Positions 9,075 to 43,620 of a DNA stretch of 64,000 nucleotides are shown in pieces. This DNA comes from Pseudaquabacterium terrae (GTDB lineage: Bacteria; Pseudomonadota; Gammaproteobacteria; Burkholderiales; Burkholderiaceae_C). The position numbers and the translations under genes are program-made. Every line of letters starts with the position of its first letter. Within the stretch, counting starts at the first letter, position 1. The stretch is taken from positions 1 to 64,000 of the forward strand of contig NZ_JABRWJ010000016.1 of the NCBI RefSeq assembly GCF_013266755.1, in the 5' to 3' direction. The notes below the pieces were generated by a model. The model saw only the letters and a list, made by a program, of their open reading frames with translations. It was not told the origin of the DNA and ran no database searches.

Positions 9075-9253
9075 GCCCGGGCCACACGACGTCGAAACGG
9101 TTCAGTTGATCGCGGCACGTCTCCTCAATGAACGCCGAAGGTGGCCTCAACCAAATGCGAATGGCACGGCGTATCGCGATGGCCGACGATGCAACGGCGA
9201 GACAACAACTCCGGAGACGAGCATTGGAAAGACACGCTGACCCAGGGTGGAAT

Positions 9254-11254: not shown

Positions 11255-11332
11255 GCAGGAGACTGCGGCGACTCTTTGGCAACCTGTCGCTAGCACGAAA
11301 TAGAAGCGGCCGTGTCGTTTGCCAACCCGAAT

Positions 11333-11359
11333 GGCCGGCGAACGAGCCATCCGCCGGCC
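11333..11359. terminator. hairpin between convergent genes
   Basis: GGCCGGCG (11333-11340) pairs perfectly with CGCCGGCC (11352-11359) around an 11-base loop, in the gap between the convergent hydrolase and redoxin genes. There is no T-run on either side, so an intrinsic terminator is only possible. Confidence 0.35.
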
Positions 11360-11372
11360 GGGCCGCCTGACG

Positions 11373-12038: not shown

Positions 12039-12067
12039 GAGGGGCTCCTTGGGCGGGCGAGTGGCAC

Positions 12068-15000: not shown

Positions 15001-15208
15001 TGAAGCCGGTGAGGTCGGCGAACAGCACGGTGACGGGGCGACGGTCGGCAGCGTCTGCAACCGCGGCGGGCGGTGGTAGTGGCGCCTCGACAGCGACGTC
15101 GACGGTGGCGGATGTGGGCGCCGCTCCGGCCAGCCGTTGCCCGCACTGCGGGCAGAACGCGAAGGCCGGTGAGGGCTCGAAACCACAGCCGCTGCAGCGC
15201 ATGACCAT
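12068..15208 (-). CDS. class III adenylate/guanylate cyclase - AAA ATPase - TPR protein
   Basis: Large cytosolic signalling protein of 1046 residues. Order: an N-terminal zinc ribbon (CSGCGF and CPQCGQ, residues 5-23); a class III cyclase domain (about 57-240); an AAA/STAND-type ATPase with Walker A GEAGSGKS at 287-294 and Walker B LLVVVEDLHWAD; then a long TPR-like helical C-terminus. The cyclase keeps the residues needed for activity: metal Asp in FADLTGF (D65) and VGDAVM (D109), Lys in EKFVGD and the Asn/Arg pair in VNTTAR. The start at 15208 puts the zinc ribbon at the N-terminus; the 57-codon upstream extension would run into the divergent gene. It is divergent, 100 bases apart, from a cyclic-nucleotide-binding protein that may sense its product. 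Confidence 0.9.
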   Translation of the reverse strand: MVMRCSGCGFEPSPAFAFCPQCGQRLAGAAPTSATVDVAVEAPLPPPAAVADAADRRPVTVLFADLTGFTSLSEALDPEDVRAFQNALFTMLAEAIERHDGFVEKFVGDAVMAVFGAPVAHEDDPVRALAAALAMQQGMAELAARWAARLGRSVQLHIGVHTGPVVAGHLGAGAGSAYAVTGDTVNTTARLLSAAEPGTVLVSEATQRLARHRFAFAPAIELELRGKARTVRAHTLLRPLDEPASARGLAALGLVAPLVGRGHELGQLREAFERMLTGRAQLVVVAGEAGSGKSRLLAEWLAGLDAERRAAVTLRRVACSSLGEPTYGVFAALFREAYRVEQADSLATAHHKLDAGLRAQGAQADEAASIAGVLKHLLGLAPVDAADIDPEQLQRQIVLAAGALVERRLQLQPLLVVVEDLHWADAASVDLLGAVLDQLAGRPLMLLVTQRPEARALRAPAAGETRLLLEALPLTQARALVGALLGDAADERLQAFVAGRSGGNPLFVEEILRSLIADGRLARDPAGGWRGAPAFEQADVPATLHGLLLSRIDRLDAPARQLLQVAAALGAEFDAALLRRVEAAVERPLEALVQSDLLQPAGGARWRFTHALLHEVVYQNLLLARRSELHRRIGCALEVLAGGEPQRLAELEALGHHWSLSDDPRKGAGYLLAAGERARALYANDDAMRHFERVLRTLATVGDAASALPEALSAREALADLCGLVGRRDDALQHYGGLLARADGDGNRIRAARLQRKIGGLQWEAGDRYQALACFDAGLAALGDEGSVAAAVERAGLLQERGRLAFRAGENAVAIALAERALQAVAGVAGREAAIVEVQARNTLGIALARTGRPADAVAEIERSIALAERHQLLQAACRGHANLGVLCASLDPQRSIETCQRGLALARQVGDLGFQANLYANLAVAYCALTNRCEAEGIEAAQSAVQLDRRLGLLDHLAVPLIVLGQIQQCHGDREHAFACYREALALAERIGEPQLLFPCYDGLATLHLDAGDAASAEVYLSQAQAVCERAGLDPDALTLLPFLC

Positions 15209-15308
15209 CGCGTGATCATCACCCCAAATTGGCGATTCCACCGACGCAGCCTCGGTGATCAGCTCGGGTTGCCTGGGAGCACAATCATTCGCGCCATCCC
15301 GCCACACA

Positions 15309-16793
15309 ATGCCGAAGATCGTCAGGTCCGACGTCGTCATCCCGAACAAGCTCGACGCCGCCGCGCGGCAAGGGTTCATCGACGCGCTCTACAAGGTCCA
15401 CTGTGAGGTCTTCGACGGCGTCACCCGCGACTCGTTCGCGAAATACGTGGTCGAGTCCCGGGCCGAGCAGACCTGGATCAACGTGCACCGCAACCACGCC
15501 GGCGAGATCGTCGGCTACTTCGCGCTGCACATCTTCGAGCGCGAACTGGACGGCAAGGCGAGCGCCATCTTTCGTGCGGAGGCCGGCACGATGCGCACTT
15601 ACCGGGGTGGCAATACCAACACCCGCTTCGGCCTCAGGCTCGCCCTGCCTTACCTGCTGCGCTACCCCGGGCGGCGCGTCTACTACCTCGGCTCGCTGGT
15701 GCACCCTTCGAGCTATTGCCTGTTTGCCAAGCTCTTCGATGTGATCTGGCCGAGCATCCGGCATCCGCCGCCGCCGGCCGTGCTCAACTTCATGGACGAG
15801 CTGGCGAACTCGTTCGGCCTCGAGCGCGTGAGCGCCGACAACCCGCTCACTCGCCACGTGCACTGGATCACGCGCGACTCCGAGGTCGAGCGCCACTACT
15901 GGCGCCAATGCGACAAGCCCGCGGCACGCTTCTTCATCGAGGCCAACCCCGGCTACGGCGAAGGCGACGGTCTGGTCACCCTGGTCAGGGTCGACGCGCA
16001 CAACCTCTGGCACCTGATCTCGACCTTCTTCGCCGAGCGCTATGCGCGGCGCAAGGAGGGTTTGATGGTGATGCTGTACCACCTGCCCATCGGCGGCCAG
16101 CTGCTACAGCCCGCCGAGGTCATCCGGCGTCTCGAGGCGACCGCCCTGTTCGGCTCATTCGACGCACCCAGCCTGGCCACGCTGGCACGCAGCGCGCAGA
16201 TCGTCGTGCTTCCCGCGGGAAAAACGGTCTTCCGGGCCGGCGACCCGGGCGACGAGCTCTACGTGATCGCGCGCGGCGCCGCCTACGTGCTGTCCGAAGG
16301 CGGGGGCGAAGACGAAGACGAAGACCACATCATCGACGAGCTGGCCACCGGCGACTCGTTCGGCGAGATCGCCATGCTCAGCGGCGAACGGCGCAGTGCC
16401 TCGGTGCGCACCGCCACCGCCACGCTGCTGATCCAGATCTCGCGCCCGGCGCTGTTCTCCATCCTCGAAGCGCACCCCGGCTTGAGCGAGATTGTCTGGA
16501 AGAACTTCGCGGCGCGGCGCTTCGACGACTGCGTGCGCGGCCTGCCGGCGTGGAAGACGATGCAACGCGCGGCGCGGCTGGCGGTCGTCGACGCGGGGCA
16601 GCACCGGACGCTGGGCGCGGGCGAGCGCGCCGACCTTCGCGCCGGGGAGATCCTGCTCGTGCTGCTGGGCAGCGTGCAGGTCGAGCAGGCGGGCACATCG
16701 ACCGTCGTGCGTGCGCCCGCCTTCTTCGATACGAAGCAGGCGATGGCAGTGACCGCCAGCGGCGCGGCGCGCATCGTGCGCATCGCGCGCTGA
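15309..16793 (+). CDS. cyclic-nucleotide-binding protein with an N-terminal acyltransferase-like domain
   Basis: Protein of 494 residues without signal peptide. The C-terminal half has a Crp-type cyclic-nucleotide-binding domain (about 275-400): LFGSFDAPSLATLARSAQ, VFRAGDPGDELYVIARG and the phosphate-binding cassette GDSFGEIAMLSGERRSASV. An acidic run EDEDED, from three GAAGAC repeats at 16308-16325, interrupts a loop. No helix-turn-helix follows; instead a degenerate second beta-roll (LRAGEILLVLLGSVQVEQ) ends the protein. The first 250 residues have GEIVGYFALHIFER, then TYRGGNTNTRFGLRLA, resembling a GNAT acyl-CoA-binding region, but this is a weak assignment. The divergent cyclase gene suggests a ligand-maker/ligand-sensor pair. 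The chosen ATG is 15309 because the 15255 alternative precedes conserved-looking sequence by 18 unremarkable residues. Confidence 0.8.
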   Translation: MPKIVRSDVVIPNKLDAAARQGFIDALYKVHCEVFDGVTRDSFAKYVVESRAEQTWINVHRNHAGEIVGYFALHIFERELDGKASAIFRAEAGTMRTYRGGNTNTRFGLRLALPYLLRYPGRRVYYLGSLVHPSSYCLFAKLFDVIWPSIRHPPPPAVLNFMDELANSFGLERVSADNPLTRHVHWITRDSEVERHYWRQCDKPAARFFIEANPGYGEGDGLVTLVRVDAHNLWHLISTFFAERYARRKEGLMVMLYHLPIGGQLLQPAEVIRRLEATALFGSFDAPSLATLARSAQIVVLPAGKTVFRAGDPGDELYVIARGAAYVLSEGGGEDEDEDHIIDELATGDSFGEIAMLSGERRSASVRTATATLLIQISRPALFSILEAHPGLSEIVWKNFAARRFDDCVRGLPAWKTMQRAARLAVVDAGQHRTLGAGERADLRAGEILLVLLGSVQVEQAGTSTVVRAPAFFDTKQAMAVTASGAARIVRIAR

Positions 16794-31965: not shown

Positions 31966-32934
31966 TCACGACGATTCGCTGGGGCGCCACATGCCGGCGC
32001 GCGCCATCTCCTCGACCAGCTCGACGATCAGCGCCGCGACCGCGGTGACGGCGCGTGCCGGGCCCTTGGACTTCGACATGGCCATCGAGATCGTGCGCTG
32101 GAACGGCGGCTCGACGATGCGTGCGGCCTGCAGCCGACGTTCGGCCACTTCGCTCCACACCGCATGCAGCGGCAGCACCGTGTACAGCCGCTCGCTCGCG
32201 ACCAGACCCCGCTGCAGCGGCAGCGAGTCGGCTTCGATCACCGGCGCCAGCGTGATGCGCTGGTGCCGCGCCATCGCGTCGAGTGCCGTGCGCAACCCGT
32301 TCGGCGCGCTGGGAAGGATGAACGGCAGGTCGTGCAGTTCCTCGAAGCGCACCTCCTTCGCATCCGTGACCCGATCGCCCGGCGGTCCGATCAGGTAGCT
32401 GTCGACGACGGCGAGCGACTGCTCCATCTCAGGCAGCGTGGGTCCGTAGCGGTACAGGATCGCGATGTCGACGCGGGCATCGGCAAGCCACTCCTCGACC
32501 TGACCGCTCGAGCCCTCGAGCACCTTCAGGCTCACCGCGGCGAAGCGCTGCCGCAGCGCCGCGAACAGCCGCGCGACCAGCGGCTGCCCGATCGACGGCA
32601 GCAGGCCCAAGGTGACGCGCCCGCCGGGTTCATGCGATTCGCCGCGGATGTCGCTCTCCAGCCGCTCGGCATCGGCCAGCAGCGACTGCACCCGCGGAAA
32701 GAGCCGCGCCCCGACCTCCGACAGCTCGACGCCGCGCCCCGTGCGATTGAACAGCCGCGCCCCGCACTCGCGTTCCAGCGCATTGAGCTGCCGGCTCAAC
32801 AGCGACTGGTTGCTGTCGAGGAAGAGCGCCGCGCGCGTCAGGCTGCCCAGCTCGCCGATGGCGACGAAGGCCCGCCACTTGTGAAGGTCGGCGGTGAGCT
32901 CGATCTTGAAGTCGGATGCTTTGGGGGAAGTCAT
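31966..32934 (-). CDS. LysR-family transcriptional regulator
   Basis: Regulator of 322 residues: N-terminal winged HTH (KWRAFVAIGELGSLTRAAL, then FLDSNQSLLSRQLNALERECGARLFNR split over about residues 22-70) and a C-terminal inducer-binding domain with VTLGLLPSIGQPLVARLF and VTDAKEVRFEELHDLPFIL. The ATG at 32934 is the only start that fits this layout; the upstream 47 codons are not conserved-like. It is divergent from the tannase at 33.1 kb (about 160 bases) and upstream of the CMD/lactonase pair, so it may control either. I found no clear T-N11-A box in the divergent region. Confidence 0.9.
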   Translation of the reverse strand: MTSPKASDFKIELTADLHKWRAFVAIGELGSLTRAALFLDSNQSLLSRQLNALERECGARLFNRTGRGVELSEVGARLFPRVQSLLADAERLESDIRGESHEPGGRVTLGLLPSIGQPLVARLFAALRQRFAAVSLKVLEGSSGQVEEWLADARVDIAILYRYGPTLPEMEQSLAVVDSYLIGPPGDRVTDAKEVRFEELHDLPFILPSAPNGLRTALDAMARHQRITLAPVIEADSLPLQRGLVASERLYTVLPLHAVWSEVAERRLQAARIVEPPFQRTISMAMSKSKGPARAVTAVAALIVELVEEMARAGMWRPSESS

Positions 32935-33095
32935 GGCCAGGTCATCGATCGATGCAGGTGATTCTGCGCTCGCGGGCGCGTCGCCGGGCCGTCCCGCATA
33001 GCAGGTATATCCCGCTGCCGATTGCTCGGCGCTGCACGCAAACCTAGATTCCTCGGGACGCCAGCCACCGTGCACAGCACACCCCAGGAGACATG

Positions 33096-34829
33096 ATGCC
33101 TACTCGTTCGACCACGCCCGATGCCACCGCGGCCACGCTGGCCGCCAGCTTGTTGTTGGTGAGCGCCTGTGCCTCGGCCAACCCGCCCGGGCGCGACAAC
33201 GCCGCGCGGCCGGTGCTGACGCCGATCACGCCCTGTGCAACGCTGACCGGCCTCGTCCTCCCCGTTTCGGCCATCGACCTGCCGACCTCGGGCGCGACGA
33301 TCACCTCCGCGACGTTGGTCGCGGCGACGCCCGAGATCGTCGGCACGAGCGCTGTCACGCATGCGGTGCCCGAGCACTGCAGCATCCTCGGCAGCATCCA
33401 TCCGGTCGACCCGGCTGCGCCGCCCATCAACTTCCAGGTCAACGTGCCGACGCAGTGGAACCAGAAGACGATCCAGGTCGGCGGCGGTGGACTGAACGGA
33501 TCGATTCCGCGCAACCTGGCCGTCGTCGCGTCGTCGGGCTCGCCGATCAGCGCCGCGTTCCCGCCGGATGCCGAGTACCCGATCTCGCGCGGCTACGCGA
33601 TGTTCGGTGGCGACTCGGGCCACCAGGACCCCAGCAACAACGCGACCTGGGCCCTGAACGCCGAGGCCTGGCAGAACTTCGGCCATGCCGCATTGAAGAA
33701 GACCCACGACGCGGCCTTCGCGGTGATTCGCACGCTGTACGGCAAGAAGCCGAAGCTCAGCTACTTCATGGGCCAGTCGCAGGGTGGCCGCGAGGCGATG
33801 GAGGTGGCGCAGCGCTACCCCAAGGACTACGACGGCGTGGTCGCGACCGCACCCCTGATCGGCTACACGGCCCACGTGGTGCACAAGACGCTGCTTGCCA
33901 CCGTGCAGACCGGCGCCGGTTGGATCGCGCCCGCGAAATACGGTGCTGTCGCAGCCGAGGTGATGCGTCAATGCGATGCACTGGACGGACTCAGCGACGG
34001 CGTCATCAGCAACTACCCCGGTTGCGCAGCGCGTTTCGATCCGCTGAAGGTGGCGCAGCCCTTCGCGGCCATTCGTTGCGCGGGCGGCGCCGATACCGGC
34101 AACACCTGCGTCTCCGACGCGCAGATCGCGACGCTGAACCAGATGCACGCGCCAACCAGCTTCGGATACCCGCTTGCCAATGGCTGGACAACGTTTCCGG
34201 GTTATGGCGTCGGCCGCGAAGCCTTCTCCGGCTGGCTGACGATTGCTCCCCAGCCGAGCCCGGCGACGCAGCCCGCGCTCGGCCAGCCGGGCGCCACGCT
34301 GAACTACGGCATCCTGAAGGACCCGTCGTTCAACCTCGTGCACTTCGACGTCGCGACATTCGCCAACCAGGTCCAGGCCGCCTCGGCCGTCATCGACTCG
34401 ACCAATCCCGACCTGAGTGCGTTCTTCGCCCACGGCGGGCGACTCATCATCAAGACCCAAAGCTCGGACTACTCATCGAATCCGCACACGGTGATGAAGT
34501 ACTACGACGCGCTGGTTTCGAAGTTCGGGCAAGCCAAGGTCGATCGGCACGTACGGCTGTATGTGTTGGCCAACGGCGACCACGGCGGCTCAGGCCAAAG
34601 CACGACAACCGGCGAGGCACTTCCGCAGTTCGTCGACCTCGTGACGATGTCGACGGACTGGGTCGAGAACGGTGCGACGCCGCCTGACGCGCCTGAATTG
34701 AGCGCGAAGCTTCGCCTGCCGCCGTACACCACGCTCGCCACTCGGCCGCTGTGCCGCTACCCCCTGTTCCCGCGCTACGCGGGCGGCGACGTGAAACTGG
34801 CGGGAAGCTTCCGCTGCAGCGTGGATTGA
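33096..34829 (+). CDS. tannase/feruloyl-esterase family protein
   Basis: Second tannase-family esterase, 577 residues, secreted or lipid-anchored (signal with LLLVSAC). The nucleophile elbow is MGQSQGGREAMEVA with Ser as nucleophile, followed by RYPKDYDGVVATAPLIGYT, GGRLIIKTQSSDYSSNP and a YVLANGDHGG segment holding the likely catalytic His. It ends with CRYPLFPRYAGGD, the same closing block as the other tannase. Unlike that protein, the Cys beside the nucleophile is missing (GQSQGG versus GCSGGG), so it is a divergent branch. Two ATGs (33093 and 33096) are possible; AGGAG at 33086-33090 is spaced better for the second. Divergent from a LysR gene that may regulate it. Confidence 0.9.
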   Translation: MPTRSTTPDATAATLAASLLLVSACASANPPGRDNAARPVLTPITPCATLTGLVLPVSAIDLPTSGATITSATLVAATPEIVGTSAVTHAVPEHCSILGSIHPVDPAAPPINFQVNVPTQWNQKTIQVGGGGLNGSIPRNLAVVASSGSPISAAFPPDAEYPISRGYAMFGGDSGHQDPSNNATWALNAEAWQNFGHAALKKTHDAAFAVIRTLYGKKPKLSYFMGQSQGGREAMEVAQRYPKDYDGVVATAPLIGYTAHVVHKTLLATVQTGAGWIAPAKYGAVAAEVMRQCDALDGLSDGVISNYPGCAARFDPLKVAQPFAAIRCAGGADTGNTCVSDAQIATLNQMHAPTSFGYPLANGWTTFPGYGVGREAFSGWLTIAPQPSPATQPALGQPGATLNYGILKDPSFNLVHFDVATFANQVQAASAVIDSTNPDLSAFFAHGGRLIIKTQSSDYSSNPHTVMKYYDALVSKFGQAKVDRHVRLYVLANGDHGGSGQSTTTGEALPQFVDLVTMSTDWVENGATPPDAPELSAKLRLPPYTTLATRPLCRYPLFPRYAGGDVKLAGSFRCSVD

Positions 34830-34869: not shown

Positions 34870-35907
34870 TCAGCCCCGGCCCAGCGCTGCGGCCAGCATC
34901 CAGCCGGCGATCCACAGCGCGCAGCCGACCATCAGCACCACCGGCCGCCAGCCGCAGCGGGCCAGGGCCGGCAGCGAGGTCTTGGCGCCGAGCGCGCAGA
35001 CGCCGATCAGCAGGCAGCCGCGCGCGGCGTTGTCCAGCAGCGTGACTGCCGCGGTCGGCAGCAGGCCGAGCGAACGCAGCGTGACCAGGCTGGCGAAGAG
35101 GCCGAGGAACCACAGCAGCGGCGGTGGGCGCTTGCCGGGCGCTTCGATGCGGCCACCCCGTGCGACGGCCAGTGCCACCGCCGCGACGACCAGCGTCAGC
35201 AGCGCGACGCGCATCAGCTTGACCAGCATCGCGGTGTCGCCGGTCGGTTGGCCCAGCGCATAACCGGCGACCACCACCTGCGCAACGTCGTGAATGCTGC
35301 CACCGACGAAGAGCCCCGCAGCCTGCGGCGGCAGCGCCAGAGCGCGGGCGAGCAGCGGGTACAGCAGCATCGCGATCGTCGACAGCAGCGTCGCGAGCAC
35401 GACCACCGTCAGCACCTCGCGCTCGCTGCGCTGATGCCGCGGCAGCACTGCGGCGAGTGCCAGCGCGGCCGAGGCGCCGCAGATCGCGCTGGCGCCACCG
35501 GCCAGCACGCCGAGGCTGCGCGGCAGCGCAAGCAGCCGCGCGCCGAGCAGGCCGACCAGCAGCGTCGTCGCCACGCCGCCGGCGATCAGCGCCGCCGTCG
35601 CCGTGCCGAGCCCGGCGAGTTGCTCGACGGTGATGCGCGCGCCGAGCAGGCCGACGCCCAGCCGCAGCAACGTGCCCGCCGACCAGGCGATGCCGGGCGC
35701 GCTGCGCGGCTCTTCGCTCTGGTAGTGGAAGGCGGTGCCGAACAGCAGCGCATACAGCATGACCGGCCCCCGATGCAGCCCGGCGACGAAAGTAGCGGCA
35801 GCGGCCAGCGCGGCGCAGAGGGCGATGCCGGGCCAGTGGCGCTGAAGGCTCAGCAGCCAAGCGACGAGTCCCGCATCACTTGTCGACGAAGGTGCGTTCG
35901 ATGCCAT
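34870..35907 (-). CDS. YeiH-family putative sulfate/sulfite exporter-type membrane protein
   Basis: Inner-membrane protein of 345 residues with about ten hydrophobic helices. Family landmarks: GVGLLGARITVEQL, the glycine-rich ASAICGASAALALAAVLP, GLFVGGSIHDVAQVVVAGYAL and LIGVCALGAKTSL. These match the YeiH (putative sulfate exporter) family, for which transport of sulfonate- or sulfite-type anions has been suggested but not settled. The start at 35907 lies inside the preceding DUF971 gene (32-base overlap) and removes an upstream extension that belongs to that gene's strand neighbour. It is the last gene of the operon running from the GntR gene, and may export an inorganic sulfur product. Confidence 0.85.
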   Translation of the reverse strand: MASNAPSSTSDAGLVAWLLSLQRHWPGIALCAALAAAATFVAGLHRGPVMLYALLFGTAFHYQSEEPRSAPGIAWSAGTLLRLGVGLLGARITVEQLAGLGTATAALIAGGVATTLLVGLLGARLLALPRSLGVLAGGASAICGASAALALAAVLPRHQRSEREVLTVVVLATLLSTIAMLLYPLLARALALPPQAAGLFVGGSIHDVAQVVVAGYALGQPTGDTAMLVKLMRVALLTLVVAAVALAVARGGRIEAPGKRPPPLLWFLGLFASLVTLRSLGLLPTAAVTLLDNAARGCLLIGVCALGAKTSLPALARCGWRPVVLMVGCALWIAGWMLAAALGRG

Positions 35908-36211
35908 TCCCGGTCTCCAGCGCCAGCTCGCGCAGATAGGCCCAGGGAAAGAGCCCACGCTCGTGTCCGTCGCTGAAGTGCAGCTGCAGGCCGAACTCGC
36001 CGACCGGGTCGATGCGCTCCAGGCGCACTGCCGCATCCGGCTGCGGCGGCTGGCCGTGGCGCCGGCCTTGCTCACAGCCGGCGCAGCGGCAGGCGGCGCG
36101 CAGGCGCGGGCCGCTCAGCAGCTGCTCGCCGAGATCGGCCCAGCCGAGCGCCAATGCGCCGGAGCGCGCATGCAGCATGACCTGCTGCGGCCACAGCTCT
36201 CGCGTGCTCAC
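35876..36211 (-). CDS. DUF971 (GBBH-like N-terminal domain) protein
   Basis: Small protein of 111 residues matching the DUF971 / gamma-butyrobetaine hydroxylase-like N-terminal domain: WPQQVMLHARSGALALGWAD, RCAGCEQGRRHGQ (with three Cys including the upstream CRCAGC), VGEFGLQLHFSDGHERGLFPWAYLRE split across about residues 70-95. Such domains bind a metal in some proteins and occur alone in many bacteria with no fixed role. Start overlaps the ATPase stop by four bases, and its end overlaps the YeiH-like gene by 32 bases, so it is tightly embedded in the operon. Function is unknown. Confidence 0.85.
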   Translation of the reverse strand: MSTRELWPQQVMLHARSGALALGWADLGEQLLSGPRLRAACRCAGCEQGRRHGQPPQPDAAVRLERIDPVGEFGLQLHFSDGHERGLFPWAYLRELALETGNGIERTFVDK

Positions 36212-37095
36212 AACATGGCTCCCACGCCTTGCGGCCCGACATCGGTCGCCAGCCCCGCCAGGCCGCCGTCCTTCAACTCACCACCCATCGCCGCCAGGCT
36301 CTCTTCGCGAATCAGCGACTTCAGCTGCTGCACCATGGCCAGGAACGCCGCCGAACTGGTCATCTCCGGCGTGCGCGGCCGCGGCAGCGGCACCGTCAGT
36401 TCAGCCTTGATGCGCCCCGGGCGCGCGGTCATCACGAGGATGCGGTCCGACAGGAACACCGCCTCGTCGATGTCGTGCGTGACGAAGAGCACCGAGATGC
36501 GCAGCCGCTGCCACATGTTGGTCAGGATTTCCTGCATCACGATGCGCGTCTGCGCATCGAGCGCCCCGAACGGTTCGTCCATCAGCAGCACGCGCGGGCC
36601 GGTGGCCAGTGCGCGCACGATGCCCACGCGCTGCTTCATGCCGCCGGAGAGCTGGTCGGGGTAGTGGTGCTCGAAGCTCAGCAAGCCCGCCAGGCCGAGC
36701 AGCGTGCGCGCGCGCGTCTCGCGCTCGGCGCGCGGCACGCCCTGCATCTTCAGCCCGAACTCGACGTTGCGCCGCACCGTCATCCACGGGAACAGCGAGT
36801 ACTGCTGGAACACGACGCCGCGGTCCGAGCCCGGGCCGTCGATGAATTCGCCGTCGAGCAGCGCTTCGCCATCGCTGGGCGCGAGGAAGCCGGCGGCGAC
36901 GTTCAGCAGCGTCGACTTGCCGCAGCCCGACGGGCCGATCAGCGAGACGAATTCACCCGGCTGCACCTGCAGGCTGACGTCGTCGACGGCGTCGACCGAG
37001 CGGCCCTTCAGCGCGAAGCGGATGCCCAGGTGGCGCAGCTCGACGTGGCCGCCCTGCGCGGCACCGCGGTGCAAGGGCATGACGACGTCAGTCAT
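36208..37095 (-). CDS. ABC transporter ATPase (nitrate/sulfonate/taurine type)
   Basis: Cytosolic ATPase subunit of 295 residues: Walker A GPSGCGKST, Q-loop in VFQQYSLFPWMTV, signature LSGGMKQRVGIVRAL, Walker B VLLMDEPFGALD and the H-loop THDIDEAVFLSDR. The sequence is of the SsuB/TauB/NrtD group. It works with the permease at 37166 and the binding protein at 38110. A 70-base gap containing a hairpin-rich repeat separates it from the permease gene, the longest internal gap in the operon apart from that after gntR. Confidence 0.95.
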   Translation of the reverse strand: MTDVVMPLHRGAAQGGHVELRHLGIRFALKGRSVDAVDDVSLQVQPGEFVSLIGPSGCGKSTLLNVAAGFLAPSDGEALLDGEFIDGPGSDRGVVFQQYSLFPWMTVRRNVEFGLKMQGVPRAERETRARTLLGLAGLLSFEHHYPDQLSGGMKQRVGIVRALATGPRVLLMDEPFGALDAQTRIVMQEILTNMWQRLRISVLFVTHDIDEAVFLSDRILVMTARPGRIKAELTVPLPRPRTPEMTSSAAFLAMVQQLKSLIREESLAAMGGELKDGGLAGLATDVGPQGVGAML

Positions 37096-37100
37096 GTGGC

Positions 37101-37157
37101 CCCCCAGGCCCTTCGGGCCGGCCCCCCGAGGGGGCGCGAGCGCCTTCGGAACGGCCG
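37101..37157. repeat. GC-rich intergenic hairpin repeat, copy 1
   Basis: The gap between the permease and ATPase genes holds two short hairpins (GGCCC-TTC-GGGCC at 37107-37119 and a CCCCC/GGGGG pair around 37123-37134), then CCTTCGGAACGGCC at 37143-37156. The same 14-base segment, with the same C/G-run neighbour, occurs inverted at 45193-45206. These resemble the dispersed palindromic elements common between genes in Burkholderiales; a role in mRNA stability or partial termination is inferred. Confidence 0.6.
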
Positions 37158-37165
37158 CGCGGCGC

Positions 37166-38113
37166 TCATGTCCGGCCCCCGGTCGCCGAATGCGCCTGCC
37201 ACGGCATCACCAGCTTCGCCAGCAGCCGGATGCCGCCGCTGCAGGCCAGGCCCAGCACGCCGATCGTGATCATGCCCAGCGCGATCTCCGCATAGGCGAT
37301 CAGCGAATACGCTTCCCAGGTGAAGTAGCCGATGCCGAACTGGCCCGAGATCATCTCGGCGGCGATCAGCGAGACCCACGCCACGCCCATGCCGACGGCC
37401 AGCCCGGTGAAGATGTGCGGCAGCGCACCCGGCAGCACCACCTGCGCGAGCACGCTGCGCTCGCCCGCGCCGAGCGAGCGTGCCGCGCGCAGCAGCACCG
37501 GGTCGATCGCCTCGACGCCGTGGATCGTGTTCAGCAGGATCGGGAAGAAGGCGCCGAGGAAGGTGATGAAGACGATGCTGACCTCGTTGTCCGGCCACAG
37601 CATGATCGACATCGGCACCCAGGCGATCGCCGGGATCGGGCGGAACACCTCCAGCGCCGGAAAGCTCAAGCGCCGCACCCAGCGATAACGCCCGATCAGC
37701 ACGCCCAGCGCCACGCCGAGCAGCGTCGCGACGGCGAAGCCGAGCAGGATGCGGCGCAGGCTGATGCCGATGTTGGCGACGAACTTCGGCGACTGGTTGA
37801 CCTCGAGCACCTTGTCGAACACCGCCGCCGGCGCCGGGATGTTGTTGAAGCGGACATAGGCGTCGAGCTTGTAGTGCGTCGCCAGGTGCCAGGCCAGCAG
37901 CACGGCGCCGATCGACAGCAGGCCGCACAGCCAGGCCATCGCGCTGCCGTGCACCCAGGCCGGTGCCGTGCGGCGCCGGCGCGGTGCCGACGCGGGGCGC
38001 GCGGCCGGCGCGCTCAGCGGCAGCGTCGCAACGCTGGCGCTGCGCACCGGCGCAGCGAGCGGTACGCGCTCGAAGGCCGCGTCATTCAGGGGTTGGGCGG
38101 CCTGCATGCTCAT
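37166..38113 (-). CDS. ABC transporter permease (nitrate/sulfonate/taurine type)
   Basis: Inner-membrane permease of 315 residues. A cytosolic, Ala/Pro-rich N-terminus of about 60 residues is followed by six hydrophobic helices and the binding-protein-dependent transport motif AARSLGAGERSVLAQVVLPG (EAA loop), with LEVFRPIPAIAWVPMSIMLW typical of the SsuC/TauC group. Start ATG overlaps the stop of the binding-protein gene by four bases. The chosen ATG (38113) is the only one compatible with that gene's end; the longer frame upstream is a shadow. Confidence 0.93.
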   Translation of the reverse strand: MSMQAAQPLNDAAFERVPLAAPVRSASVATLPLSAPAARPASAPRRRRTAPAWVHGSAMAWLCGLLSIGAVLLAWHLATHYKLDAYVRFNNIPAPAAVFDKVLEVNQSPKFVANIGISLRRILLGFAVATLLGVALGVLIGRYRWVRRLSFPALEVFRPIPAIAWVPMSIMLWPDNEVSIVFITFLGAFFPILLNTIHGVEAIDPVLLRAARSLGAGERSVLAQVVLPGALPHIFTGLAVGMGVAWVSLIAAEMISGQFGIGYFTWEAYSLIAYAEIALGMITIGVLGLACSGGIRLLAKLVMPWQAHSATGGRT

Positions 38114-39552
38114 TTCCCGGCAACCGTGAGCTTGGGCGCGGCGAGGCCCAGCGCTTCGGCGTAGGTGGCCAGCCTGCCGCCGGACTGCGCGGCCAGTGCT
38201 TCGGCATCCTTCTTCAGCAGGAAGGGCACGGTCTGCGGATTCTTCGGGTCCTTGGTGTCGACGGCGTAGAAGGCCTTGTCGGCGAAGACCTTGATGCCGA
38301 GCGCCTTGTCGAAGACGTAGGCCACGGCCACCTTGCGGCCGGCCGACTCGTACTGCCGGATGCCGGCCAGCGTGCAGGTGGGCGAGCTGGTGGACACGAT
38401 CTCGCCATCGGCCAGCCAGATCTCGCCGGCCTCCTTCGGCCGCGTCACCGCGGTCCTGCACACCGGGTCCTTGCCCTCGATGTCGTAGTTGGCCAGCGTC
38501 TGCTTCTGCGCGTCGTAGTCGAGCCCGCGTTCCTTGAAGGCCTGGCGCACGTAGCTTTCGTTGACCCAGGCGTCGATGTTGAATTCCTTGACGCGGCCTA
38601 ATCTGTTCAACACGCCGAAGGCGGTCCTGATCGTTTCCAGCCAGCGCGGCTTGATCGTCGGGTCCAGCGTGTGGATGCCGCCGGGGCCCAGGAAGATGTA
38701 GGCCACTTCCTTCTCGATCTTGGTCCACTGCTCGATCTTCTGCGCCGCCTCCTTCGGGTTCTTGCGCACCCAGTCGTTGGCCTCCATCAGCGCCTTGACG
38801 TAGGCGACCACGGCCTCCGGATACTTGTCCGCGAAGTCCTTGCGCACGACGACGCCGTGAAAGGTCGGGATCTTGGTCTGCGCGCCATCGAAGATCTTGC
38901 GCGCGAAGCCGCGGTAGGGCAGCAGCTCGGCGAAGGGCACGAAATCGCCGTGGCCGTCGATCTTCCTTTCCTGCAGGTTGGTGGTGCCGACCTCGGGACT
39001 CTGGCTGACCAGGTTCCAGAAGCCGTCAGGCCAGCCGCGCTCCTGCATCGCCTGCAGCATCATCCCGTGCGCCGCCGAGCCGAAGGGCACCGAGACGGTC
39101 TTGCCCTTCAGGTCCGCCAGCTCGTAGTACGGGCTGTCCTTGTGCACGACCACGCCATTGCCCGCGCCGAAGGCGTTGTAGGCGATCACCGCGACCAGCT
39201 GCGTCTCGTTGCCCTTGTTCTGCTGGCCGGTCGCGCCATTCACCAGCAGCGGGTAGTCGCCCATCATGCCGATCTGCAACTTGCCGGCGACCATGCCGTT
39301 GGTGACCGGCGGGCCGGAGGTGAAGTTCTGCCAGTCGAGCTTCCACTCGACGTCCTTGTACTTGCCGGTCTTCGGCAAGTGCTTCTCCAGCAGCTTCAGC
39401 TCCTTCAGCACGATGCCGCCGGTGACGGTGTTGGTGGTGGTGTTCTGCGTGCCGATGCCGATCGTGATGACCTGCTTGCCCTGCGACCAGGCCAGCGCGG
39501 GAAGCAGCGCCAGCAGCGCGACCAGGCTCGATGGAAGACGGGGAATGTTCAT
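38110..39552 (-). CDS. ABC solute-binding protein with a C-terminal NosL/YHS-like domain
   Basis: Periplasmic binding protein of 480 residues, longer than typical NrtA/SsuA-type proteins. After a Sec signal (ends ALAWSQG), residues to about 365 form the SBP part: VITIGIGTQNTTTNTVTGG, KLQIGMMGDYPLLVNGATG, LADLKGKTVSVPFGSAAHG and FHGVVVRKDFADKYPEAV. The last 110 residues begin with a cysteine motif GKDPVCRTAV, have a second Cys (SSPTC) and continue AVAYVFDKALGIKVFADKAF, TVPFLLKKDAEALAAQSGG. This resembles NosL-type or YHS-type metal-binding domains, an unusual addition. The copper-ligand Met of NosL is not obvious. It overlaps both neighbours by four bases (HEAT gene upstream, permease downstream). 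Confidence 0.85.
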   Translation of the reverse strand: MNIPRLPSSLVALLALLPALAWSQGKQVITIGIGTQNTTTNTVTGGIVLKELKLLEKHLPKTGKYKDVEWKLDWQNFTSGPPVTNGMVAGKLQIGMMGDYPLLVNGATGQQNKGNETQLVAVIAYNAFGAGNGVVVHKDSPYYELADLKGKTVSVPFGSAAHGMMLQAMQERGWPDGFWNLVSQSPEVGTTNLQERKIDGHGDFVPFAELLPYRGFARKIFDGAQTKIPTFHGVVVRKDFADKYPEAVVAYVKALMEANDWVRKNPKEAAQKIEQWTKIEKEVAYIFLGPGGIHTLDPTIKPRWLETIRTAFGVLNRLGRVKEFNIDAWVNESYVRQAFKERGLDYDAQKQTLANYDIEGKDPVCRTAVTRPKEAGEIWLADGEIVSTSSPTCTLAGIRQYESAGRKVAVAYVFDKALGIKVFADKAFYAVDTKDPKNPQTVPFLLKKDAEALAAQSGGRLATYAEALGLAAPKLTVAGK

Positions 39553-40496
39553 CGCGGTACTCCGTTCAACTGCAGGGAAGCCAGCGCCAGCTTGGCGAGC
39601 TTGCGCACGTCGGGATCGCTGTCGGCCAGTGCCCGCTCCAATGGCGTGATGGCCCGTGCGTCGCCCAACTCGCCGAGCGCGATCACCGCTTCCTTGCGCA
39701 GGTTGCTGATCGGGTGCTGCAGCGCCTCGACCAGCGCCGGCAGCGCGGCGCGCGCCTTCTGCTTGCCGAGGCTGCGCGCGGCCTTCAGCCGCACCTGCCA
39801 GTACGCGTCGGCCAGCGCATGGATCAGCTCGCCGACGGCGACCGCACCGCGCAGCTTGCCCAGCGTCGTCGCGGCTTCCTCGCGCACCTGCCAGGCGCCA
39901 TCGGACAAGGCCCGCGTCAGCGCCGGCTGCACGCTCAGGCCGGCCGATTCGTGCGCGAAGCCCAGTGCGCCGACTGCCGCCCGCCGCACGTCGGCTTCCG
40001 GGTCGTGCGCGGCCAGCTCGGTCAAGGCGCCGATCGCCCGCGTGTCCTTCAGATAGCCGAGCACGCCGACTGCTTCGCGCCGCACCAGCGCGTCGGCATC
40101 GGCCAGCGCAGCCAATGCCGGCAGGAAGGCGTCCGGCACGCGCAGCGCCTTGACGGCGCGCAGCGCGGCGGCTTTCACCGTGGGCGTCGGCTGTGCAATC
40201 CACGGCAACACGAAGGCTGCCGATGCCGGTTGCTTCAATTCGGCCAAGGTCGCCGCAGTGGCGTCGCGCACGGCCGCATCGGCATCGGCAAGCTTCGGCA
40301 CCAGCGCGCGCAGCACCTCGGGCTCCTCGAAGCCTTCGAGCGCCTTGGCCGCTTCGAGCCGCACGCCGGCATCGGCATCGGCGAGTGCCGCGACCAGCAG
40401 CGGTGCGATGTCGTCTTCCTCGTCGCTGTACGGCAGGTCGAGCACCGCGACGCGGCGCACCGCCGGGTCGGGGCTGTTCAATCGCTGATGAATCAT
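39549..40496 (-). CDS. HEAT-repeat protein
   Basis: Cytosolic protein of 315 residues made of about nine HEAT/PBS-lyase-type repeats of roughly 30 residues, for example ALADADAGVRLEAAKALEGF, LADADALVRREAVGVLGYL and LADSDPDVRKLAKLALASL. Such solenoids act as scaffolds or as maturation factors for cofactor proteins. Its position between the ferredoxin and the transporter, with an overlap of four bases to the binding-protein gene and two bases after the ferredoxin gene, suggests a role in assembling or docking the flavoprotein-ferredoxin pair. This is inference; no catalytic residue is visible. Confidence 0.88.
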   Translation of the reverse strand: MIHQRLNSPDPAVRRVAVLDLPYSDEEDDIAPLLVAALADADAGVRLEAAKALEGFEEPEVLRALVPKLADADAAVRDATAATLAELKQPASAAFVLPWIAQPTPTVKAAALRAVKALRVPDAFLPALAALADADALVRREAVGVLGYLKDTRAIGALTELAAHDPEADVRRAAVGALGFAHESAGLSVQPALTRALSDGAWQVREEAATTLGKLRGAVAVGELIHALADAYWQVRLKAARSLGKQKARAALPALVEALQHPISNLRKEAVIALGELGDARAITPLERALADSDPDVRKLAKLALASLQLNGVPR

Positions 40497-40498
40497 GG

Positions 40499-40732
40499 TC
40501 AACGCACCAGGTAGGGGATGTTCACGTGCACCGCGCCGGTGGGGCAGTCCTTCTCGCAGGGCATGCAGTACCAGCATTCGTCGAACTTCATGAAGGCCTT
40601 GTTCTTCACCAGGTCGATGGCCAGCACGTCGAGCGGGCAGACGTCGACGCAGACGGTGCAGCCCTTGTCGGCGATGCATTTGTCCTCGTCGACGACAACC
40701 GGCGCCTGGGTACGGGTGAGGGCGATGGTCAT
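40499..40732 (-). CDS. two-cluster [4Fe-4S] ferredoxin (AprB-like)
   Basis: Small ferredoxin of 77 residues with two 4Fe-4S motifs: CIADKGCTVCVDVCP, with an extended spacing between the first two Cys as in AprB, and CWYCMPCEKDCP. A tryptophan next to the second cluster is also an AprB trait. It follows the AprA-like flavoprotein gene by 27 bases and is probably its electron partner. A general ferredoxin is the alternative. Confidence 0.92.
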   Translation of the reverse strand: MTIALTRTQAPVVVDEDKCIADKGCTVCVDVCPLDVLAIDLVKNKAFMKFDECWYCMPCEKDCPTGAVHVNIPYLVR

Positions 40733-40759
40733 GGCGGTCCTCTCTCGCGGGGCTATGGA

Positions 40760-42505
40760 TCAGGCGGCCTGCGCCGGGCGGTTCAGCGCGGCGCCGGCGA
40801 CGCGCAGGCGCTGGTAGGCGGTGCGCTCCTCGTCGTTGAGCTCGACGACATAGGGCTCGACCGCACGCTTGCGAAAAACGGGCCGGCCTTCGTCATTCCC
40901 CCGCACATTGGTGTGGCAGAACCACTCGGCATCGTTCTTCTCCGGGTGGTCGACGCAGAGGTGATAGAGGCCCCAGCGGCTCTCGGTGCGGAACAGCGAG
41001 GCGCGCGCTGCGAGCTCGGCGCAATCGCGGATCGCATGCGCTTCCATCGCGCGCATCAGTTCGTGCGGGTCGGCGGCGCTCAATTGATCGAGGTCGCCGC
41101 GGATCTCGTCGAAGCGCTCGAGCGCGATCTGCATCTTGCGCGTGACCTTCGGCGGCTGCAGGTAGTCGTTGACGATGCGGCGCGTCTTGTATTCGACCTG
41201 GAACGGCGTCAGGCCTTCGCTGCGCTTCAATGGCGCCTCGATGCGCGCGCGCTCGGCGTCGATGCGCGCGCTGTCGACCTGCGGCGCCGCGGCATCGGCC
41301 AGGTACTGCGCCGCGTTCTCGCCGCAGAACTTGCCGTAGACGAAGGCGCCGAGCATGTAGTTGTGCGGAATGCTGGCGCAGTCGCCGGCCGCATACAGCC
41401 CGGGGATCGAGCATTCGCCGCGGTGGTTGGTCCAGATGCCCGACGCGCTGTGCCCCGAGCAGAAGCCGATCTCCGAGATGTGCATCTCGACCATGCGCTT
41501 GCGGTAGTCAGTGCCGCGCTGCTCGTGGAAACGGCCGCGGCTGGGCCGCTCGTTCGTGTGCAGGATGTGCTCGATCTCGCCGATGGTCTCTTCGGCCAGG
41601 TGGTCGAGCTTCAGGAACACCGGGCCGCGGCCGCCTTCGAGCTCGTTGAAGAACTCGAGCATCATCTGGCCGCTCCAGTAGTCGCATTCGATGAAGCGCT
41701 CGCCGCGCGCATTGGCGGTGTAGCCGCCGAACGGACCGGTCACGTAGGCGCAGGCCGGGCCGTTGTAGTCCTTGATCAGCGGGTTGATCTGGAAGCACTC
41801 CAGGTTCGTCAGCTCGGCGCCGGCGTGGTAGGCCATCACATGGCCTTCGCCGCAGTTGGTCGGGTTTTCGTAGGTGCCGAACAGGTAGCCCGACGCCGGC
41901 AATCCGAGCCGGCCCGCCGCGCCGGTGCACAACACGACGGCGCGCGCGCGGATGACGTAGAAGTCGGCCGTGCGGCAGTCGAAGCCCATCACCCCGGCGA
42001 TCTCGCCGTCGACGCCGGTGATCAGCCGCGTCGCGACGACGCGGTTGGTGATCTCGACGCGGGCGCGCTTCAATTGCCGATAGAGCACCCGCTTCATGTG
42101 GTGGCCTTCGGGCATCGGCAGCACGTAGCTGCCGAGGTGGTGCACCTTGCGCACCGCGTAGTCGCCGGTCTCGTCCTTCTCGAACTTGACGCCCCAGCGG
42201 TCGAGCTCCTGGATCATTGCGAAGCTGTTCGACGCGTAGGCGTAGACGCCCTGCTGGTCGACGATGCCGTCGTTGGCGACGGTGATTTCCTTGGTGTATT
42301 GCTCGGGCGTCGCGTGGCCGGGGATCACGGCATTGTTGAGCCCGTCCATGCCCATCGAGATCGCGCCGCTGCGCTTGACATGGGCCTTGTCGAGCAACAG
42401 CACGCGCAGCTTCGGATTCGCCTCCTTCGCCTTGACCGCGGCCATCGGGCCACCCGTGCCACCCCCTACGACGACGAGGTCGTACTCCAGTTCGATCGTG
42501 TTCAT
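40760..42505 (-). CDS. AprA-like flavoprotein (fumarate reductase/succinate dehydrogenase fold)
   Basis: Cytosolic FAD-dependent oxidoreductase of 581 residues. The N-terminal dinucleotide fold is YDLVVVGGGTGGPMAAVKA; RSGAISMGMDGLNN, an FAD-contact region, and GFCSGHSASGIWTN with LYAAGDCASIPHNYM are closest to the adenylylsulfate reductase alpha subunit (AprA) pattern within the fumarate reductase superfamily. It probably forms a complex with the AprB-like ferredoxin at 40499. APS reductase itself would normally sit with sat and qmo genes, which are absent, so a different sulfur or organic substrate is likely. The start at 42505 is preferred over 42508 because GGAGG is then spaced by 5 bases. 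Confidence 0.88.
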   Translation of the reverse strand: MNTIELEYDLVVVGGGTGGPMAAVKAKEANPKLRVLLLDKAHVKRSGAISMGMDGLNNAVIPGHATPEQYTKEITVANDGIVDQQGVYAYASNSFAMIQELDRWGVKFEKDETGDYAVRKVHHLGSYVLPMPEGHHMKRVLYRQLKRARVEITNRVVATRLITGVDGEIAGVMGFDCRTADFYVIRARAVVLCTGAAGRLGLPASGYLFGTYENPTNCGEGHVMAYHAGAELTNLECFQINPLIKDYNGPACAYVTGPFGGYTANARGERFIECDYWSGQMMLEFFNELEGGRGPVFLKLDHLAEETIGEIEHILHTNERPSRGRFHEQRGTDYRKRMVEMHISEIGFCSGHSASGIWTNHRGECSIPGLYAAGDCASIPHNYMLGAFVYGKFCGENAAQYLADAAAPQVDSARIDAERARIEAPLKRSEGLTPFQVEYKTRRIVNDYLQPPKVTRKMQIALERFDEIRGDLDQLSAADPHELMRAMEAHAIRDCAELAARASLFRTESRWGLYHLCVDHPEKNDAEWFCHTNVRGNDEGRPVFRKRAVEPYVVELNDEERTAYQRLRVAGAALNRPAQAA

Positions 42506-42602
42506 CATTCCTCCGGCAGTGTGTGAGGGCTGGGCAGCTTCGCCAACGAAGCGAAACGCCGATGCTTCTGCGGCCACCGCATGTGGGCGACGATTGGCCG
42601 CG

Positions 42603-43421
42603 TCATTTGCGAGGCAGCGCGCTGCGATCGACGCGCACCTTGTACTGGAAGGCATCGCCGCGGTAGAAGAGGTGCTCGTGGTCGATCGGCGTGCCGTCGG
42701 CCAGGTGGGTGGTGCGCTCGATCTGCAGTACCGGCGCGCCCTCCTCGACGCGCAGCTGCGCGGCGAGCGCCTCGTCGGCCAGCGTCGAGCCGATCTGCAG
42801 GTCGGCATGGCCGAGCGCGAGGCCGTAGTCGTTCTCGAGGATCACGAAGACGTCGCGCGTCGCCAGGTCTTCCTTCGCCAGGCGCTGGCCGATGTGCAGC
42901 GGCAGGTAGCTCACGTCGAGCGAGATCGGCTCGCGGTTCAGGAAGCGCAGCCGCTTCAGCTCGGTGGCCTTGCCGCGCTTCGGGATCTGCAGGCGCTCGG
43001 CCACGGCCTGAGGCGGGGTGATCCGCTCGATCGACAGCACGCGGTTGAAGCTTTCGTAGCCGCGCTCGCGCATCGCCTCGCCGAAACCTTGCAGCCGGCC
43101 CAGGTCCTGGAAGGCCTTCGGCTTCGAGACGAAGCTGCCCTTGCCGTGCAGCTTGAAGATCAGGCCTTCGTTCTGCAGATCGGCCAGCGCCAGGCGAACC
43201 GTGATGCGGCTGACCCCGAAGCGGGTCATCATCTCGGCCTCGGAGGGCATCTGCTGGTGCGGCTGGTAGCTGCCGTCGAGGATGCGTTCGCGCAGCAGCT
43301 GCTTGATCTGCGCATACAACGGGCCCGGCGATTGCGCGGCCAGGTCGGCGGCGAGGTCAGGCGCGGATGCGGGATGCAAGGGAAGGATCCTCGCGCCGGC
43401 GGGCTTGGGTGACGTGGCCAT
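42603..43421 (-). CDS. GntR-family (HutC/UTRA) transcriptional regulator
   Basis: Regulator of 272 residues: winged HTH at about 45-105 (LYAQIKQLLRERILDGSYQP, MPSEAEMMTRFGVSRITVRL) followed by a UTRA ligand-binding domain (LGRLQGFGEAMRERGYESFN, LNREPISLDVSYLPLHIGQ, VDRSALPRK at the end). HutC-type regulators respond to small metabolites. It lies just upstream of the flavoprotein gene (97 bases) on the same strand and is probably first in the operon. Palindromic sites directly ahead of its start suggest autoregulation. Confidence 0.93.
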   Translation of the reverse strand: MATSPKPAGARILPLHPASAPDLAADLAAQSPGPLYAQIKQLLRERILDGSYQPHQQMPSEAEMMTRFGVSRITVRLALADLQNEGLIFKLHGKGSFVSKPKAFQDLGRLQGFGEAMRERGYESFNRVLSIERITPPQAVAERLQIPKRGKATELKRLRFLNREPISLDVSYLPLHIGQRLAKEDLATRDVFVILENDYGLALGHADLQIGSTLADEALAAQLRVEEGAPVLQIERTTHLADGTPIDHEHLFYRGDAFQYKVRVDRSALPRK

Positions 43422-43431
43422 CGCGGTGCAA

Positions 43432-43452
43432 CTCGTTATGACGAGTCATGAC
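43432..43452. promoter_or_regulatory. palindromic operator candidate for the GntR regulator
   Basis: Ten bases ahead of the regulator start are CTCGTTATGACGAG (43432-43445, arms CTCGT/ACGAG) and an abutting perfect palindrome GTCATGAC (43445-43452). HutC-type regulators bind short GT-N-TA-N-AC-like palindromes, and the location overlaps the expected promoter, so autoregulation is plausible. Confidence 0.5.
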
Positions 43453-43620
43453 AAGCATGCGCCGTGCCAGGCGGAATCACCGCTCAATCGTGGTTCAGGG
43501 AGCCATTGCAGGGCGCGTGTGCGCGCCGCTGGTGCAACTCAGGTCGATCTCGCGTCAGGGCGCGCAACTTGCGTTGGTGCGGCGCTGGCCCGCTGCGCCG
43601 TCGCAGCATGGTCGTAGAGG

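Follow-up and report, generated by a model that had tools for sequence, protein, structure and literature searches.

What is the function of a flavoprotein that resembles AprA of adenosine 5'-phosphosulfate (APS) reductase and is encoded together with a sulfonate-type importer? This question is raised by an operon of Pseudaquabacterium terrae, located on the minus strand of the stretch of DNA analyzed here (contig NZ_JABRWJ010000016.1, positions 1 to 64,000, hereafter the window). Nine open reading frames, all of them open, lie at positions 34870-43421 of this 64-kb window: a gene for a GntR regulator and eight genes behind it. These code for a flavin adenine dinucleotide (FAD) flavoprotein (Fp), a ferredoxin (Fd), a HEAT-repeat protein, a periplasmic substrate-binding protein (SBP), the permease and the ATPase of an ATP-binding cassette (ABC) importer, a DUF971 protein and a YeiH-type putative exporter. 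A sequence-only reading had described this set of eight genes on one strand, and both their content and their coordinates are borne out by Pfam and NCBIfam matches and by the reading frames. We tentatively propose that the operon serves to release sulfite reductively from a sulfonate-like compound taken up by the cell.

Conservation of the operon

A search for Fp (E ≤1e-120) and the SBP (E ≤1e-40) covered 100 genomes of the order, among them that of the window. Each protein was found in six genomes. These are the same six genomes, from six families, and in all of them the two genes are about 0.4-4 kb apart on one strand. At these thresholds, neither protein was found in the other 94 genomes. 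Co-occurrence in other genomes, whose lack would have refuted the sequence-only reading, is thus present.

Gene neighborhoods were compared in 80 named loci. As these are the closest among the matches listed (Fp at least 72% identical to that of the window), they lean to Burkholderiales and Pseudomonas; six of them end prematurely on the downstream side. Fp is accompanied by the ferredoxin in all 80 loci, by GntR in 79, by the HEAT protein in 77, by the SBP in 62, and by the permease, the ATPase and DUF971 in 61 each. YeiH is present in seven (nine with a second query). Two full gene orders prevail, with the HEAT gene either ahead of the transporter genes, as in the window, or behind the ATPase gene. 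The shared occurrence in six of 100 genomes and the constancy of the ferredoxin, GntR and HEAT genes indicate that the operon is a real unit, and its gene arrangement exceeds chance by far.

Fp belongs to the NCBIfam family PRK08275, as its score lies well above the cut-off of the model NF006131. Among 397 genomes sampled from the phylum, 26 have a match above the cut-off of this model, with one copy each. Annotated plasmid copies are found in Cupriavidus, Acidithiobacillus, Methylobacterium, Methylocystis, Sinorhizobium (two), three cyanobacteria, Tsukamurella, Aquabacterium, Mesorhizobium, Acinetobacter and Paraburkholderia. The gene table of the Mesorhizobium stretch, which is incomplete, has no ABC genes directly adjoining the core. 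The cross-phylum core of the operon is new here.

The flavoprotein and its ferredoxin

No experimentally tested function of PRK08275 was found in the literature, and a search of paper text gave zero occurrences of either PRK08275 or NF006131 and a single one of PRK13800, in a paper about mycorrhizal fungi. The nearest solved structure to Fp is the alpha subunit of the 3'-phosphoadenosine 5'-phosphosulfate (PAPS) reductase of M. thermolithotrophicus (8a8o, E 1.4e-57), followed by AprA of A. fulgidus. In a midpoint-rooted tree of 29 sequences, from which the locus L088 was left out, PRK08275, AprA and an APS-reductase-like protein of Ilyobacter stand apart from succinate dehydrogenase, aspartate oxidase and AsfA (support 88/90); the support of the PRK08275 clade itself is 77/93. 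Fp is therefore outside the two clades whose inclusion of it would have contradicted the earlier AprA-type assignment. These comparisons suggest with moderate confidence that Fp groups with AprA and PAPS reductase and not with succinate dehydrogenase. The AprA models score Fp below their cut-offs (TIGR02061, 154.6 vs 641.75 bits; NF005331, 284.7 vs 557 bits). The window genome has zero matches to the PAPS/APS-reductase-type model NF005331 at 1e-100, and it has genes of the PF01507 family (CysH/CysD type).

In A. fulgidus AprA, Asn-A74 and His-A398 are reported to contact the sulfate oxygens, and Trp-234 and Arg-265 also hold the sulfate (PMC2211403). The structure-match alignment places Asn-A74, Trp-A234 and Arg-A265 opposite Asn58, Tyr213 and Leu244 of the window protein, while His-A398, which is beyond that alignment, was equated with His353 through aligned AprA rows. 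All 95 PRK08275 rows (the window, the 80 loci and 14 others) have the pattern N, Y, L, H at these four sites; internal stop letters in the translations of L014, L040 and L063 were entered as X for alignment only. All 11 usable rows of the AprA/NF005331 set (13 minus L108 and L110, which are antisense open reading frames) have N, W, R, H. The four-residue signature of PRK08275, as it appears in these alignments, is new here. Fp thus keeps the Asn and the His of APS reductase and has Tyr for its Trp and Leu for its Arg.

A Lys-Asp pair (246-247) is common to PRK08275 and AprA. The segment GFCSGHSASG had been taken as AprA-type; its His does match a His in all Apr rows, but it is also found in SdhA and NadB. 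Glu346 beside this segment, common to AprA and missing from succinate dehydrogenase and NadB, is a better mark of AprA. A segment of AprA in the capping region faces a gap in the Fp alignment, and the capping region of the Fp structure model, with a predicted local distance difference test score (pLDDT) below 50, was set aside.

In the ferredoxin, the spacing of the cysteines is identical in 80 of 80 loci, in agreement with the AprB-type spacing reported earlier, and all 80 proteins have a Trp directly after the first Cys of the second motif. A motif search found AprB partners at 4 of 12 AprA loci, and these have the same Trp. So does the Ilyobacter partner, in which it has position 42, the number also given to the Trp of PAPS reductase (PMC10322725). 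It probably corresponds to the electron-transfer Trp-B48 of AprB. Having two [4Fe-4S] motifs and this Trp, the ferredoxin resembles AprB.

With the Asn-His pair and the ferredoxin Trp kept and the Arg and Trp of AprA gone, the enzyme appears to be built to move electrons to an FAD beside the Asn-His pair. AprBA, the 8a8o enzyme and the Ilyobacter NF005331 pair all have, like the window pair, an FAD subunit and a 2[4Fe-4S] ferredoxin, the Asn, the His, the Lys-Asp and the AprB-type Trp. The window ferredoxin, in contrast, is without the AprB tail, and the pair has a HEAT partner and a sulfonate-type importer instead. Unlike in Ilyobacter, no sulfate-activation genes are found beside the annotated PRK08275 copies viewed. 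The Fp-Fd pair is AprBA-like but does not have the active-site residue pattern of APS reductase. An identity as PAPS or APS reductase was rejected on the residue pattern and on the TIGR02061 and NF005331 scores.

The importer and the accessory proteins

The structure model of the SBP (pLDDT 81) has TauA (6ssy) as its top fold match, followed by SsuA, and its SsuA_fam score lies below the cut-off of 163.5 bits. The importer resembles SsuABC and TauABC in the fold of the SBP and in the type of permease and ATPase. It differs from them in an additional NosL-like domain and in staying below the SsuA, TauA, TauC, SsuC and TauB/SsuB cut-offs; the SaoP and NtrB models for the permease and the SaoA model for the ATPase are below cut-off as well. 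The NosL-like domain, which we take to be MerB-related, occupies SBP residues ~360-470 (cut-off of PF05573, 24 bits). It also occurs in one cyanobacterial and one Pseudomonas relative, and its cysteines are not conserved.

Thirteen loci have HEAT and DUF971 genes but no dedicated SBP. Five of them (L034, L040, L043, L046 and L083) have a weak SBP match in the locus, and the three of these five that were tested (L034, L040 and L043) score above the SsuA-family cut-off; the L034 gene is encoded by the opposite strand. Directly ahead of Fp in Nostoc (L096) is a gene whose annotation reads sulfonate binding protein. The likeness of the importer to TauA/SsuA supports a sulfonate-type uptake.

The HEAT protein is fused to the C-terminus of Fp in the actinobacterium Tsukamurella (L097). 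In the cyanobacterial loci L094-L096, a gene for an Mrp/NBP35 Fe-S carrier ATPase lies behind HEAT (Pfam on L095). The YeiH protein is below the cut-off of TIGR00698 (124.5 vs 232.6 bits) and matches the broader PF03601. Its gene can follow DUF971, lie upstream of GntR or belong to a cyanobacterial cluster, and the window genome has three YeiH copies in 8.04 Mb. TauE/SafE genes adjoin the operon copies in L094, L095 and L098.

Clustering of the open reading frames over 91 loci revealed further genes that join the cluster: FdxA and a ferredoxin-reductase-like protein in at least eight loci each (the one example of the latter that was tested scored 150 bits vs a cut-off of 390), and a large NAD(P)H-type oxidoreductase in seven or more. 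These neighbors point to an NAD(P)H-driven delivery of electrons. The large oxidoreductase has ~1190 residues, is GltD/FNR-like and is PRK06567-like below cut-off; it is encoded in L030 (17229-20789), L024, L038, L055, L065, L077 and L090.

Possible mechanism

By combining these data, it is possible to describe how the operon might work. It would scavenge sulfur from a small sulfo compound, most probably a sulfonate, which the SBP and the ABC importer would bring into the cell. The Fp-Fd pair, which the HEAT protein perhaps keeps together, would then work like AprBA. Electrons, supplied by NADPH via FdxA and ferredoxin reductase, which are in the same cluster in some relatives, would reach the FAD by way of the two [4Fe-4S] clusters and the conserved Trp. 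With Asn58 and His353 holding the sulfo group, the reduced flavin N5 would attack it; the organic moiety would leave, and sulfite would be released. The sulfite would enter assimilation, and an excess of it may exit via YeiH, or via TauE/SafE beside some other copies. DUF971, and Mrp in cyanobacteria, may serve the assembly of Fe-S clusters. The uptake and redox processing of a sulfur compound suggested by the sequence-only reading agree with the AprA/AprB kinship and with the sulfonate-type importer, whereas the export of a product, judged by the gene neighborhood, is possible.

The PAPS reductase of M. thermolithotrophicus is an AprBA-type enzyme for which a flavin-sulfite adduct has been proposed (PMC10322725). 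It is conceivable, albeit doubtful, that PRK08275, its ferredoxin and the HEAT protein form a third class of AprBA: an O2-free reductive desulfonase that would use the flavin N5-sulfite chemistry on a non-nucleotide sulfo compound, possibly at a C-S bond. We know of no description of the desulfonation of a sulfonate by such a route.

Several points weigh against the proposed sulfite release. The C-S bond of a sulfonate is not activated like the S-O-P bond of APS. In place of Arg-265 and Trp-234 of AprA, every PRK08275 row has Leu and Tyr, and the chemistry may therefore differ from that of AprA. His353 aligns with SdhA and NadB too, and this His alone is thus not specific to AprA; as the Fp model is poor in its capping region, the comparison of the active sites relied on sequence only. 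The fold matches of the SBP include nitrate-, bicarbonate- and thiamine-related proteins, so that its likeness to TauA leaves the ligand open. YeiH is optional among the 80 loci, and three TauE queries had no match in them. A peroxide phenotype described for A. baumannii (see below) is real data, for which a release of sulfite accounts only indirectly. Finally, oxygenase-type genes lie beside some copies. NtaA/DmoA-type FMN monooxygenases (four proteins above cut-off, the others by clustering) are encoded near six of the 91 loci (L034, 6079-9139; L042; L050; L036; L064; L087). Annotated genes include those for LLM oxidoreductases behind the ATPase (L119, 16314-18677), a Rieske protein behind DUF971 (L118, 15767-17557) and a TauD-type dioxygenase (near L093, 7238-8188).

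Alternative explanations

The presence of oxygenase-type genes of several families beside single copies keeps alive an Asf-like explanation, in which Fp and Fd would only feed electrons to a separate, often distant oxygenase that cleaves the sulfonate. We regard this role as unlikely, though it has to be taken seriously. In P. putida S-313, asfAB, together with ssu, is the electron module of a sulfonate-cleaving oxygenase, and the reductase, ferredoxin and sulfonate binding protein of that system, as well as its ecological setting, are like those of the operon (PMC4267179). On the other hand, no oxygenase was recognized among the clusters of open reading frames that occur in more than six of the 91 loci, and the window genome has no SsuD above cut-off (best match 49 vs 518 bits). 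The likely AsfA of C. metallidurans is 27% identical to the window Fp, and its ferredoxin is without the AprB-type Trp.

Among named pathways, the asfRABC arylsulfonate system (PMC4267179, PMC9694294, PMC2864759), known from P. putida S-313 and as AsfAB from C. metallidurans, has a similar composition, including an ABC transporter. It has a LysR regulator in place of GntR/UTRA, and no HEAT or DUF971 protein is named in the available text of the three sources. The C. metallidurans pair is most likely Rmet_4334/5, because only one of the two replicon homologs has an adjacent ferredoxin. This AsfA is found elsewhere in the tree, at a place that is unsure owing to its branch length of 7.2, and its AsfB has Gln for the Trp. 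The best match to it in the window genome is the window Fp itself. Membership of the operon in Asf was rejected on identity, tree place and the Trp/Gln difference.

A role in efflux and oxidative stress appears improbable. It has been put forward for the counterpart of the ABC genes in A. baumannii, where a publication of 2026 describes an operon by a chromate transporter gene as a GntR-ABC efflux system that belongs to the OxyR regulon (PMC13104710). In that work, reverse transcription PCR showed an operon, an electrophoretic mobility shift assay was made with GntR, and expression of the permease gene was lower in a gntR mutant. The gntR and permease mutants were sensitive to H2O2 and had modest shifts in minimum inhibitory concentration (PMC13104710). 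These shifts, however, were two- to fourfold and concerned eight compounds only, and the sulfur-related text of the available part of PMC13104710 does not deal with sulfur nutrition.

The published order (GntR, Fp, Fd, SBP, permease, ATPase, beside the chromate transporter gene) is that of L117, an A. baumannii locus on which the comparison rests instead of on the published strain. Its Fp is 69% identical to that of the window, in an alignment from which L014 was left out; unlike in the window, the HEAT and DUF971 genes are behind the ATPase gene. The operon of L117 is located at 8229-15440 and has the architecture of an importer, with a TauA/SsuA-like SBP; a TSUP-family gene lies ~6 kb upstream. 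The BPD_transp_1 permease and the TauA/SsuA-type SBP, present in the window and, by NCBIfam scores below cut-off, in L117, argue against efflux. Moreover, the ferredoxin and HEAT genes (80 and 77 of 80 loci) are more constant companions of Fp than the transporter genes (61-62).

It is very improbable that Fp is a succinate/fumarate-type dehydrogenase acting on an organic acid, as its NCBIfam name says. It has the domains FAD_binding_2 and Succ_DH_flav_C in common with succinate dehydrogenase, and His353 aligns with the active-site His of SdhA and NadB. The dicarboxylate residues of E. coli SdhA, however, which we take to be H242, T254, E255 and R286, and its presumed FAD-linking H45 face other residues in Fp, R399 faces a gap, and the tree puts Fp with AprA. 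Most improbable of all is a kinship with the SAO organometal system, in a form without selenocysteine. The best transporter models (SaoA, 275.8 bits, cut-off 360; SaoP, 157.1 bits, cut-off 295) and the NosL-like domain would point to it. However, these models and SaoX (21.5 bits, cut-off 300), the three SAO components compared, are below cut-off, the nearby exporters are of sulfur type, and this explanation was set aside because an alignment of 70 SBPs has no Cys with 95% conservation. By the tests made, the operon encodes a conserved AprBA-like system outside APS reductase, Asf, succinate dehydrogenase and SAO.

Counterparts of the operon

The sequence-only reading called the operon undescribed. 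Its novelty is in fact limited, as Fp has an NCBIfam model and counterparts from A. caldus and A. baumannii are in print. Plasmid operons of A. caldus, with ferredoxin/APS reductase/GntR genes and a NitT/TauT sulfonate transporter, have been predicted to serve the uptake and assimilation of organosulfonates (PMC12375680). The module described there is probably the pTcM1 locus of the present operon type. Like the window, pTcM1 has GntR-Fp-Fd-HEAT of the PRK08275 type; unlike it, pTcM1 also carries FdxA and a large FAD oxidoreductase, with the ABC genes on the other strand, and its function is a prediction only.

The Nostoc plasmid L096 carries genes for HAD hydrolases, a methyltransferase, GNAT and VOC proteins between Fp and Fd, in one run (8995-16404), and they may possibly be a clue to the processing of the substrate. 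In two cyanobacterial loci, genes annotated as LysR are divergent from Fp (L095, 6676-8676; L094, 6388-8424, minus strand). The L095 protein has LysR domains and, by Pfam, a weak NMT1-like (SsuA-type) C-terminus, which suggests a regulator with a binding-protein-like sensor; the L094 gene clusters with it.

Regulation and layout of the operon

A palindrome of 16 bases, ACTYGTNATNACRAGT, is found at the head of the operon as the copy ACTCGTTATGACGAGT, which is the one match in the window at ≤2 mismatches, where 0.08 are expected. In the 8.04-Mb genome the site of the operon is the one exact match, and there is one further place at one mismatch. At -250 to +60 of the GntR start, the palindrome is exact in 35 of 79 loci and present with ≤2 mismatches in 62, compared to 0.0 and 0.1 in base-shuffled controls; the pattern itself came from these upstream regions, which means that the count does not stand as independent evidence. 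Of the 17 loci left, seven have it (≤1 mismatch) between GntR and Fp. Among 12 annotated records it is found at ≤1 mismatch in two (L087 and L098) and not in the other ten, including L117 of A. baumannii, which indicates that it belongs to near relatives. In L065, a one-mismatch copy lies just ahead of the gene for the large oxidoreductase. GntR of A. baumannii binds and activates the promoter region of its operon (PMC13104710). The GntR protein of the window probably binds the palindrome, which would function as an operator. This putative palindromic operator common to near relatives is new here.

The features are listed in Table 1. The junctions between the nine genes, in bases, are +94 (GntR-Fp), +27 (Fp-Fd), +2 (Fd-HEAT), -4 (HEAT-SBP), -4 (SBP-permease), +70 (permease-ATPase), -4 (ATPase-DUF971) and -32 (DUF971-YeiH). 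Overlaps of 4 bases, earlier described as many, do exist, at three of the eight junctions. The start of YeiH is placed inside the DUF971 gene. Past the downstream end of the operon, reading by eye revealed a tannase/feruloyl-esterase-like gene (33093-34829, plus strand) and a gene for a LysR regulator (31966-33075, minus strand).

Table 1. Features of the operon, with positions in the window
Feature	Position	Strand	Evidence
GntR-family regulator, UTRA domain	42603..43421	-	PF00392 75 bits, PF07702 126 bits
AprA-like FAD flavoprotein (Fp), NCBIfam PRK08275, 582 residues	40760..42508	-	NF006131 1067.1 bits, cut-off 587
AprB-like 2[4Fe-4S] ferredoxin (Fd), 77 residues, W54 after first Cys of second motif	40499..40732	-	Pfam, Cys motif
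HEAT-repeat protein, 315 residues	39549..40496	-	PF13646 164 bits
Periplasmic binding protein (SBP), TauA/SsuA-type, with C-terminal NosL-like domain	38110..39552	-	SsuA_fam 123.7 bits, PF05573 22 bits, fold
ABC importer permease, BPD_transp_1, NitT/TauT type	37166..38113	-	PF00528 84 bits
ABC importer ATPase	36208..37095	-	PF00005 111 bits
DUF971 / GBBH-like N-terminal protein	35876..36211	-	PF06155 68 bits
YeiH-type putative sulfate/sulfite exporter, optional member	34870..35907	-	PF03601 194 bits
Putative palindromic operator	43431..43446	.	9 bases upstream of GntR start

Implications

The genes at stake carry the database name 'fumarate reductase/succinate dehydrogenase', and they are found in cyanobacteria and an actinobacterium too. 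If the proposed release of sulfite is true, the operon would represent an unrecognized route for organic sulfur in soil and plant-associated bacteria. The chemistry of APS reductase would then have been reused on non-nucleotide substrates, and the 'efflux' label given to the system in a pathogen would be corrected.

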